A stretch of DNA of 64,000 bases, from the NCBI RefSeq assembly GCF_016654015.1, contig NZ_JAEPWM010000012.1, forward strand, positions 62,001-126,000. The letters are read 5' to 3'. Below the pieces are notes generated by a model, which was not told where the DNA came from, made no database searches, and saw only the letters and a list, made by a program, of their open reading frames with translations. Numbering within the stretch: the stretch's first letter is position 1; every line of letters begins with the position of its first letter. The stretch is from Ramlibacter ginsenosidimutans (GTDB lineage Bacteria; Pseudomonadota; Gammaproteobacteria; Burkholderiales; Burkholderiaceae_C). Below are positions 43,807 to 46,555 of this stretch, in pieces. The position numbers were made by a program, and so were the translations under genes.

Positions 43807-44469
43807 CTACGCCTGCATCGCCCCGGACAGCACGATTTCCTTGCCGCGTGCCACCGGCACCCGGCGCAGCAGCGCGCGCGCCACGTCGCTGGCCTGCACC
43901 GAGCGGTAGTTCGCCGGGATCAGCGGCCGCAGCAGGCGCGTCACGCGCAGTGCGAGCTGCTCGCCACCGCGCTCGGGCTGGCCGAGCGCGCCGCGGTCGC
44001 CCGCGAGCATCGACGGCCGCGCGATGACCAGGCCTTCGTAGCCGAGCGCGTCCAGGTCCTGTTCGAGCTCGCCCTTCACCCGGCTGTAGAAGAGCGACGA
44101 GCGCGTATCCGCTCCCATCGCGCTCACCAGTCCCAGCCGCTTCGCGCCCGCTGCCAGCGCGGCTCGCGCGACGGCCAGGTTGGCGTCGTGGTCGACCGCG
44201 CGGAATGCGGCCTGGCTGCCGGCGACCTTGATGGTGGTGCCCAGCGCGAGGTACACCTCGTCGACCGGGGGCAGCGCCGGAAGCGCCGCGAAGTCGACGA
44301 GATGCAGGTGCAGCTTGGGGTGGGAAACGCCTGGCGCGCGACGCGCGAGGACGTGGACTGCCGCGACCGACGCATCGGCGAGCAGTCCCTCGAGAATGGC
44401 CCGGCCGACGAGCCCCGTGGCTCCCGCCAGCAGGGCGCTACGGTCCGGGGCAGGAGCAGGTCGGTCCAT
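43807..44469 (-). CDS. NAD(P)-binding Rossmann oxidoreductase (atypical SDR, HTATIP2/YbjT-like)
   Basis: This 220-residue protein begins with a Rossmann motif LLAGATGLVG (13-22). VYLALGTTIKVAGS and a later FYSRVKGELEQDL (127-139) carry the YxxxK-type pair, as in atypical short-chain dehydrogenases of the HTATIP2 group. The substrate is unknown; relatives act as NADPH sensors or nucleoside-diphosphate-sugar epimerase-like proteins. It lies downstream of rhlE on the same strand but is separated from it by the 276-base twin palindromic element, so independent expression is likely. Confidence 0.82.
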   Translation of the reverse strand: MDRPAPAPDRSALLAGATGLVGRAILEGLLADASVAAVHVLARRAPGVSHPKLHLHLVDFAALPALPPVDEVYLALGTTIKVAGSQAAFRAVDHDANLAVARAALAAGAKRLGLVSAMGADTRSSLFYSRVKGELEQDLDALGYEGLVIARPSMLAGDRGALGQPERGGEQLALRVTRLLRPLIPANYRSVQASDVARALLRRVPVARGKEIVLSGAMQA

Positions 44470-44496: not shown

Positions 44497-44772
44497 CTAG
44501 GAGCCTGGGCGGCAGAGAGACGGGCCTGCGTTGGACCGAGAAGGGGGTGGAGGCTAGGCGCGGAAACGGGTCCAGCCTGGCCGGCTGGACCCGTTTCCGC
44601 AACGACGCATACGCCCCCTTCTCGGTCCAACCCTGCGGGCCGGGGCTTGGAAGCGCGCCATGCGTCGTTGCAGCCTCCTTGTGTAGATGAACTACACGGC
44701 GTCGGCTGCGCCTAGCCTGACACGCTTCCAAGCCCCGGCGCAGGCCCGTCTCTCTGCCGCCCAGGCTCCTAG
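44497..44772. repeat. twin inverted structured element (two ~134-nt units) between rhlE and the oxidoreductase gene
   Basis: Unit 1 is 44497-44630 on the plus strand and unit 2 is 44772-44640 on the minus strand, meeting at a nine-base centre. Both read: a 34-nt block (identical, beginning CTAGGAGCCTGGGCGG); a 20-nt helix strand P1; AGGCTAGGCGC; a hairpin P2; GCAACGACGCAT; the 20-nt P1 partner. The three blocks are identical in both units. P1 differs in sequence (44531-44550 with 44611-44630, versus 44738-44719 with 44659-44640) yet pairs over 17-20 positions in each. P2 differs likewise (18-bp stem 44560-44577/44583-44600, versus GTGTAG/CTACAC at 44681-44697). The ends are CTAG; the right end is one base from the rhlE stop. 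Confidence 0.9.
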
Positions 44773-44773
44773 C

Positions 44774-46555
44774 TCAGCGGCCGTAGTTGCGCGTCGGGTT
44801 GCCGCCGCGACGGTTACCGCCGCCGCCACCACCGCCACCGCCGCCATGGCGACGGCCGGTGGCGCCCATGCTGTCGATGCTGGTGCGCGTCGGATCCGGC
44901 TGGCCGTTGGCATTGACCCGCTTCACGCCGGTCATGTCACGCCGCCCCGGCATGTTGGTGCGCAGCGGATCCACGTTGCGCGGCATCCGGTCGTCGCCGT
45001 CGTCGTCGAAGGCACGTTCGCGTCCGTCGTCGCGCGGCTGCTGCGGCGCGCGCGCCACCTGCGCCGGCTGGGCCGGCCGGTTGCTGCGCGGCGGCCGGCC
45101 GCCGCCATTGCCGTTGCGGGGCTGCTGGCCGTTGCCGTTGCCGTTGCGCGGCTGCTGCCCGTTGCCGTTGCGGACCTGCTGGCCACCGCCATTGCCGTTG
45201 CGCGCCTGCTGGCCGTTGCCGCTGCGGGCTTCGCCTTCGGGCTTGCGCTTGCCGGAGCCGCCGGACTTGTCCTTGTTCTCGCGGATGCGCTGCATCATCT
45301 CGCTGCGCGCCGCCTTGGCCGCGGCGTTCATCACCTCGCGCGACGGCGGGCGGCCCTTGCCGCCCCACAGGACCTGGCGGCCCATGGCGATGGGCTGGGC
45401 CTCTTCGCCGGGTTCGGGACCGAAGCCCTCGACCACGACGGTCGGGATGTCCTGCTTCGTGAAGCGCTCGATCTCCTGCATGAAGCCTTCCTCGTCCAGG
45501 CAGACCAGCGACACGGCCTGGCCTTCCTTGCCCGCGCGGCCGGTGCGGCCGATGCGGTGGACGTAGTCTTCCGGCACGTTGGGAATCTCGTAGTTCACCA
45601 CGTGCGGCAGGTCGTCGATGTCGATGCCGCGGGCGGCGATGTCGGTGGCGACCAGCGCGCGGATGTCGCCGCTCTTGAAGCCGGCCAGCGCCTGCGTGCG
45701 GGCGGTCTGGCTCTTGTTGCCGTGCAGGGCCATCGCGGTGATGCCCTTCTTCTGAAGGTACTCGGCGACGCTGTTGGCGCCGAACTTGGTCCGCGTGAAC
45801 ACCAGGACCTGCGACCACTCGTGTTCCTGGATCACGTGGGCCAGCAGTTCCTTCTTGCGGCCGCGGCCGGCGGGATGCACGACTTGCGTGATGCGCTGCA
45901 CGGTGGTGTTGCGCGGGGTGACCTGGATGCTCTGCGGATTCTTCAGCAGGGTATGGGCCAGGTCGCGGATCTCGTCGCTGAAGGTGGCCGAGAACAGCAG
46001 GCTCTGCTTCTCGCGCGGCACCAGCGCCAGGATCTTCTTCACGTCGGGCAGGAAGCCCATGTCCAGCATGCGATCCGCTTCGTCCAGCACGAGGATCTCG
46101 ACGGTGGACAGGTCGACGTGGCCCTGCTGCTGCAGGTCCAGCAGGCGACCGGGCGTGGCGACGAGGATGTCGACACCGCGCTTCATGCGGTCGATCTGCG
46201 GGTTCATGCCCACGCCGCCGAAGATCACGGCGGAGGTGAGCGGCAGGTACTTGCCGTAGGTGCGGATGGACTCTTCCACCTGCGCGGCGAGTTCACGCGT
46301 GGGCGTGAGCACCAGGGCGGCGATGCCGTCCTTGCCGAACTTGTTGGTCTTGCTCTGGCCGTGGGTCAGCTTATGCAGCATGGGCAGCGTGAACGCCGCC
46401 GTCTTGCCGGTGCCGGTCTGGGCGCCGGCGAGGAGGTCATGGCCCTCGAGAACGGCCGGGATGGCCTGGGCCTGGATGGGGGTGGGAGTCTCGTAGCCTT
46501 GCTCGTGGACCGCCTTGAGGATGGCGGGGGCGAGTTTCAGTTCGTCAAAAGTCAT
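44774..46555 (-). CDS. rhlE: DEAD-box ATP-dependent RNA helicase RhlE
   Basis: This 593-residue helicase has AQTGTGKT (45-52), PTRELA (85-90), DEAD (158-161), SAT (189-191) and HRIGRTGR (333-340), the full DEAD-box set. The C-terminal 190 residues are a disordered basic tail: repeated RNGNGQQ-like units at 446-488, then RGG/NR segments and a run of ten Gly (571-580). RhlE helps ribosome maturation and RNA decay. The tail probably binds RNA and may promote condensates. The gene is divergent from the first DUF1631 gene and is followed at once by the twin structured element. Confidence 0.93.
45092..45220 (-). repeat. in-frame low-complexity tandem repeat in rhlE (NGNGQQ-type units)
   Basis: The DNA encoding residues 446-488 of RhlE consists of imperfect repeats coding (A/V/P)-R-N-G-N-G-(G)-Q-Q, built on CGCAACGGCAACGG units. 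Unit number may vary between strains by slippage. The reading frame is intact here. A separate GGC/GGT run codes ten Gly at 44816-44845. Confidence 0.75.

Follow-up and report, generated by a model that had tools for sequence, protein, structure and literature searches.

Small palindromic repeats of the ERIC, Correia/NEMIS and RUP type are described, in the accessible portion of the source, as gene-free elements of 100-300 bp with TA ends and terminal inverted repeats, highly base-paired, lying mostly near gene ends and present in many copies per genome (PMC2229807). The CIR repeats of Caulobacter and Brucella consist of two long inverted-repeat arms and a linker (PMC2229807, same portion); REP sequences and GTAG- or CGTC-tagged palindromes are extragenic, often inverted dimers near gene ends (PMC3733652, as far as the available text extends); and MITEPsy1 of Pseudomonas syringae is small and non-autonomous and has CTAG or YTAA as its insertion site (PMC3189936, likewise). 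An element resembling each of these lies in the window, by which we mean the whole 64,000-nucleotide stretch of Ramlibacter ginsenosidimutans DNA analysed here. We regard it as probably a non-autonomous, MITE-like mobile palindrome, the two-unit form of a TA-bounded superfamily that extends across Pseudomonadota.

The element, at 44497-44772, is made of two inverted units that carry identical blocks and different, self-complementary stems. Each unit runs from an end motif through a 20-nt P1 arm, block A, the P2 hairpin and block B to the other P1 arm. The features of the element and of its flanks are as follows.

44497-44772, no strand: the whole two-unit palindromic element, 276 bp, terminal CTAG on each side counted in
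44497-44530, + strand: terminal inverted repeat/end motif, left copy; starts CTAG-GAGCCTG and is identical to 44739-44772 on the - strand
44531-44550, + strand: unit 1 P1 5' arm; 18 Watson-Crick pairs, 1 wobble and 1 mismatch with 44611-44630
44551-44561, + strand: unit 1 block A, AGGCTAGGCGC, the 5' strand of the internal loop
44562-44598, + strand: unit 1 P2 hairpin, 37 nt
44599-44610, + strand: unit 1 block B, GCAACGACGCAT, the 3' strand of the internal loop
44611-44630, + strand: unit 1 P1 3' arm, partner of 44531-44550
44631-44639, no strand: centre, CCCTGCGGG, 9 nt joining the units; a mini-hairpin is possible between the arms
44640-44659, - strand: unit 2 P1 3' arm; 18 Watson-Crick pairs and 2 wobbles with 44719-44738
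44660-44671, - strand: unit 2 block B, the same block as in unit 1
44672-44707, - strand: unit 2 P2 hairpin, 36 nt
44708-44718, - strand: unit 2 block A, the same block as in unit 1
44719-44738, - strand: unit 2 P1 5' arm, partner of 44640-44659
44739-44772, - strand: terminal inverted repeat/end motif, right copy, 34 nt, an inverted copy of the left one
43807-44469, - strand: next gene, NAD(P)H-binding, 220 aa, on the same strand as the helicase gene; its start codon ATG is 27 nt away from the element
44774-46555, - strand: flanking DEAD-box helicase gene; best NCBIfam match RhlE at 623 bits, below the model cut-off of 743

Both letters and coordinates bear out the earlier note, which had described identical blocks in two inverted units. 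Its statement that the stems differ completely yet remain self-complementary holds for the pairing; 'completely' is slightly strong, since the P1 5' arms of units 1 and 2 agree at 7/20 positions. The pairing between units that it had proposed extends over 65 nt at 80% complementarity, and the GC/GC pair that it placed at the closure of the internal loop is present, with relatives showing a change from G-C to G-U to A-U. The exact 12-mer of block B occurs only twice in the window, both times within the element; with up to one mismatch there are three matches in the window, a number reached by 1 of 100 shuffles. As RNA the 276 nt are predicted to fold at -232.6 kcal/mol (z -20.2) and as DNA at -135 (z -20.4), energies as low being found in 0 of 200 shuffles in either case; the predicted whole fold comprises an outer stem, two arms and the mini-hairpin. 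Open reading frames across the element are mechanical only, and it encodes no protein of its own.

The element lies directly behind the helicase gene: its end at 44772 is followed by a single C (44773) and then by the helicase stop codon TGA (44774-44776, - strand), confirming the one-base distance from the rhlE stop reported before. The same note had offered three readings, namely a structured RNA, a mobile palindromic element or a 3' regulator of rhlE. A conserved rhlE 3' regulator was rejected, because in 8/8 relatives inspected the orthologous rhlE 3' site holds a short spacer instead of the element. The absence at this site indicates that the window copy is a lineage-specific insertion; in the genus, a match to the full query was listed solely for the window's own genome. 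The surroundings of the element showed no promoter or terminator pattern. A role as riboswitch or ribozyme, suggested by the layout of the internal loop, is putative and read from the sequence; the loop itself is real and conserved.

Further copies, for which the earlier note had proposed a search, proved to be numerous. In the genome of the window the element is the one two-unit copy; it is accompanied by a partial copy (C22) and by isolated end motifs of weaker match, and the covariance model found four further single units there with other ends and stems. These four (G000 C25:147574, C12:689821, C1:656366 and C9:51035; L224-L227) belong to a second family with GCCTCAGGGCGC stems, AGAAGCTGTGAATGAATTGATCGCGCCC ends and one extra base per block (AGGCGTAGGCGC / GCAACGCCCGCAT). 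Of 60 genomes in the genus, 26 contain matches at E<=1e-5, several of them in large numbers. When up to one mismatch is allowed, 11 of 12 genus genomes contain the end motif, at 79 sites in total (0 for the reversed-pattern control), and facing pairs of it in the 12 genomes lie ~170 or ~275 bp apart, apart from one pair at 54 bp. Copies at two different sites of one genome (G008) are identical at 274/276 positions. The first or last bases of contigs carry many matches (G018, G039, G113 and others), as assemblies break at the elements; copy numbers are underestimates for this reason.

Beyond the genus, we scanned for both exact blocks 25-55 nt apart, the spacing within a unit. This pattern recovered at least 119 further loci holding 120 units. 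Their record titles point mostly to Beta- and Gammaproteobacteria; two contigs bear the label Verrucomicrobia. A covariance model (R1) matched 76/200 genomes of the order at E<=1e-3, and, at E<=1e-5, 51/276 of the class and 27/199 of the phylum; the counts, taken after stricter filtering, all contain the genome of the window itself, from which the model was partly built. By these counts the majority of sampled genomes have no match. Phage carriage was discarded, the exact-pattern scan of viral contigs giving 0 matches. Among 72,556 plasmid records the Pseudomonas type was found in 4 and the window and Cupriavidus types in none, and a 38-nt end query matched 5 plasmid records, none annotated as transposase.

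Comparison of the copies revealed stems that change while their pairing is kept. In the 116 units whose flanks are complete, pairing at P1 positions 5-9 is kept in 91-97% of cases, compared with 39-47% when partners are swapped, and the same units contain 96 distinct P1 12-mers and 103 distinct P2 sequences. Two alignments were examined. Alignment A1 has 52 rows, consisting of 50 of the 66 listed non-redundant units and the two window units; 50 of the 52 rows were selected for exact blocks, so that the blocks are invariant there by selection. In A1, 50/52 rows have at least 6 of 8 P2-stem pairs in the best register, 91.1% of cells are paired (64.5% when shuffled, 31-42% in slid controls) and covariation is 0.645 against 0.156 in shuffles. 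Alignment A2 comprises 64 other matches from BLAST or the model; it gives 94.5% pairing and a covariation of 0.882 against 0.208, values that lean towards structure because the alignment was fitted to the model. The stems of other copies are thus complementary, as a check proposed in the earlier note had asked, and its description of a selection-like pattern on structure now extends to many further copies with changed stems and kept pairing.

The internal loop is nearly invariant. In A2, all 64 rows keep the AAC of block B, and each column of the AGG in block A is kept in 62-64 of them. At block pair 3-10, 51 rows have GC, 5 AU, 3 UA and 2 CG; at block pair 10-2, 45 have GC, 14 GU, 2 AU and 1 CG. 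Position 5 of block A and position 7 of block B also covary, with T/A in 39 rows, A/C in 15 and T/C in 4; the rarer combinations are G/A (3), A/A (1), C/A (1) and C/C (1). P2 is likewise predicted to contain an internal loop or bulge, in 100 of its 102 distinct sequences, the commonest larger loops being 3x2 and purine-rich: C[GGA]A/T[GA]G (20), C[GCA]G/C[GA]G (17) and C[GGA]G/C[GA]G (10).

Evidence for which strand carries the signal is mixed. Of 102 units, 79 have their better fold on the strand running from block A to block B, and the remaining 23 do not. Wobble pairs in P1 favour that strand (81 G-T against 11 A-C), while the P2 terminal stem has no strand preference (15 against 17); the wobble signal is thus borne out by P1 only and is partly due to a recurrent GGC after block B. 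By eye, 14 of 18 single units in one genome (G065) are oriented one way relative to replication, a count that assumes a mid-contig terminus, is uncorrected for gene direction and is not drawn on as evidence. Strand-specific recognition of the A-to-B fold is likely but unproven.

The architecture of the copies supports the option of a mobile palindromic element, as do their dispersal and their presence or absence at given sites. TA-flanked terminal inverted repeats (at least 10/12) surround 45 of 106 units, compared with a mean of 1.55 and a maximum of 4 in 20 shuffled controls; the other 61 units failed this test, of which the TA flank was a precondition, so that it is no measure of TA use. 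By size, 23 of the 45 fall at 158-165 bp and 15 at 267-276 bp, with 7 other. Terminal repeats vary, and include GTGTCCTG, GGGTCTGT, GTCCGTTC, GGAGCCTG and others. The model was run on 77 loci, with L196, L211 and the 15 G198 loci left out; loci of one genome are non-independent. It found a second unit in 20 of the 77, in all 20 with a + unit followed by a - unit and starts 103-109 nt apart, as in the window. TA, often as CTAG, stands at both ends; empty sites are too diverged for the exact junction to be read. In a pair of homologous plasmid regions, the one with the element has a 303-nt spacer and the one without it an 88-nt spacer.

These observations are consistent with an element that exists as one unit (~162 bp) or as two inverted units (~270 bp) and that would insert at TA through a transposase acting in trans. 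Its internal loop, formed by blocks A and B, would probably be recognised in the folded single strand running from block A to block B; we infer this because the stems are free to change and the loop is not. Copies would survive mostly at gene ends, where they may do little harm. A bolder version holds that the element is defined phylum-wide by its structure, an enzyme or RNA-binding factor reading the fixed loop and the recurrent 3x2 purine loop of P2 in one folded strand, with stems and terminal repeats exchangeable and mobility kept; this we put forward tentatively, as a possibility rather less probable than its negation.

It is also conceivable, though unlikely in our judgement, that the units are cis-acting structured RNAs, 3' or intercistronic, which act in mRNA stability, processing or coupling and were dispersed only secondarily. 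In favour of such a role, 23/25 units with a long P2 have a predicted gene stop 18-33 nt away, always on the same side, several of these units lie within operons, and related groES-groEL copies have, by eye, paired changes in their stems. ERIC, a comparable element, alters mRNA stability in an orientation-dependent manner according to the part of the source available (PMC2229807). Against this, the long-P2 units are antisense to the neighbouring gene in 23/25 cases, which places the better-folding strand opposite the message and argues against a simple mRNA role of the A-to-B strand. Short-P2 single units have no side preference either, with a stop on the right in 15, on the left in 12, on both sides in 3 and on neither in 40 (n=70), and the orthologous rhlE site is, as described above, empty in the relatives. 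Among 95 short-P2 units, 22 have a predicted stop codon 47-53 nt from a block, according to heuristic gene calls; these stops roughly coincide with the end of a one-unit element, whose terminal TAG or TAA may therefore itself serve as stop codon.

Operon sites read from protein ends are groES-groEL, iscA-hscB and fadB-fadA, and for short-P2 units rpsG-fusA and atpD-atpC (predicted names throughout). Elements inside conserved operons of some lineages could be mistaken for operon-specific regulators, which is a warning for annotation. When the groES-groEL spacer was compared across 30 genera of the window's family, a unit was present in only 1/30 (L236, seen by eye and by the model and missed by the exact block pattern), a result that again speaks against a cis-acting RNA and on which an ancestral groES-groEL element was rejected. 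Three of these spacers (L239, L247 and L254) contain a different palindrome (ATAGCTGCT...AGCG...) and two (L245 and L259) share yet another (GGGACAGACC...); unrelated palindromes seem to accumulate in this spacer.

Arm complementarity could instead arise by template switching. Under this explanation there is no selection on pairing: the arms are homogenised and constraint falls on the mismatched blocks alone, for example as double-stranded binding sites. Perfect arms in fast-changing stems would follow without any RNA function. Block mismatches persist, however, where template switching would remove them, and the block positions change together, T5 with A7 in 39 rows and A5 with C7 in 15 of the 16 rows that have A5; we consider this explanation slightly more unlikely still than a cis-acting RNA. 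Less probable again is that the element is of the REP/RAYT or TIRYT type and is mobilised by a Y1 (HUH) transposase working on folded single-stranded DNA. Folding of a single strand would explain the loop, Y1_Tnp genes are present in all 16 genomes tested, each of them copy-bearing, and REP dimers and palindromic terminal inverted repeats of Y1 genes are described in the available part of PMC3733652. A model match at E<=0.01 lies within 1.5 kb of only 2/30 Y1 loci, however (3 more are weak, up to E 10), and all five Y1 loci inspected have inverted repeats of their own, GGGGTCAGA... in four and AGGGTCAGAG... in one; a Y1/RAYT transposase acting in cis was rejected on these grounds. At L270-L274 the Y1 genes stand between inverted repeats of their own (TAATTGGGGTCAGATTCCAATTA in the genus), comparable to the TIR-flanked Y1 genes in the part of PMC3733652 that was available.

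For the mobile palindrome that we favour, no transposase partner with matching ends was found in a search covering end motifs, Y1_Tnp and DDE_3, and facing end motifs at transposon-like spacing were absent from the 12 genus genomes; orphan MITEs need no such partner. An IS630 partner was rejected, as DDE_3 (IS630-type) is present in only 3/12 copy-rich genomes. One element, on a plasmid of Azotobacter chroococcum, is directly adjoined by an annotated IS630-family transposase (L228:823-1990), with CTAG at the junction. As for the idea that a transposase takes the place of P2, the loci collected contain six block-A sites with only a distant block B, and the block B of one (L291) is that of an ordinary unit.

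In the window, no match to an Rfam family attains the gathering score, a check that the earlier note had proposed, and the 3 matches at that score in 18 loci do not overlap a unit; the 19 sub-threshold matches at E<=5 are mostly to microRNA models, the best being MIR1437 at 46.4 bits against a cut-off of 168. A literature search that included the block and end strings found no description of the element, most subscription journals being beyond its reach. Integron attC sites have variable hairpins and conserved mismatched boxes (RYYYAAC/GTTRRRY) and lie adjacent to stop codons. The present units resemble them in their variable hairpins, their conserved mismatched boxes and their position beside stop codons, but blocks A and B are without the attC boxes.

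Set beside the described repeats, in the portions of PMC2229807 and PMC3733652 available, the element has the features of the MITE class and represents a variant for which no earlier description was found. Unlike in ERIC, Correia/NEMIS and RUP, as far as the available text describes these, the stems are exchanged almost wholesale between copies, and an asymmetric internal loop is fixed across the phylum and across differing terminal repeats. RUP has an IS630 partner according to the same text (PMC2229807), and none was found for the family of the window element. CIR repeats, compared with the element by description only, carry a GANTC motif (PMC2229807, same portion). REPs are 20-40 bp long with a 4-nt unpaired tag in the part of PMC3733652 available, whereas the units here are ~134 nt with internal conserved loops; by this length, and with a model match near only 2/30 Y1 loci, they fall outside REP/RAYT elements. 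MITEPsy1 is 100 bp with an IS5-type (ISPsy2) terminal repeat, and the ends printed in the available part of PMC3189936 have no blocks in common with the element. The loop offers a direct handle for finding its reader and for testing movement or action as folded single strands. Small palindromic repeats are common, most of their families having a sequence-based definition and a range of one genus; the loop described here is common to elements with unrelated stems and different ends across Pseudomonadota.
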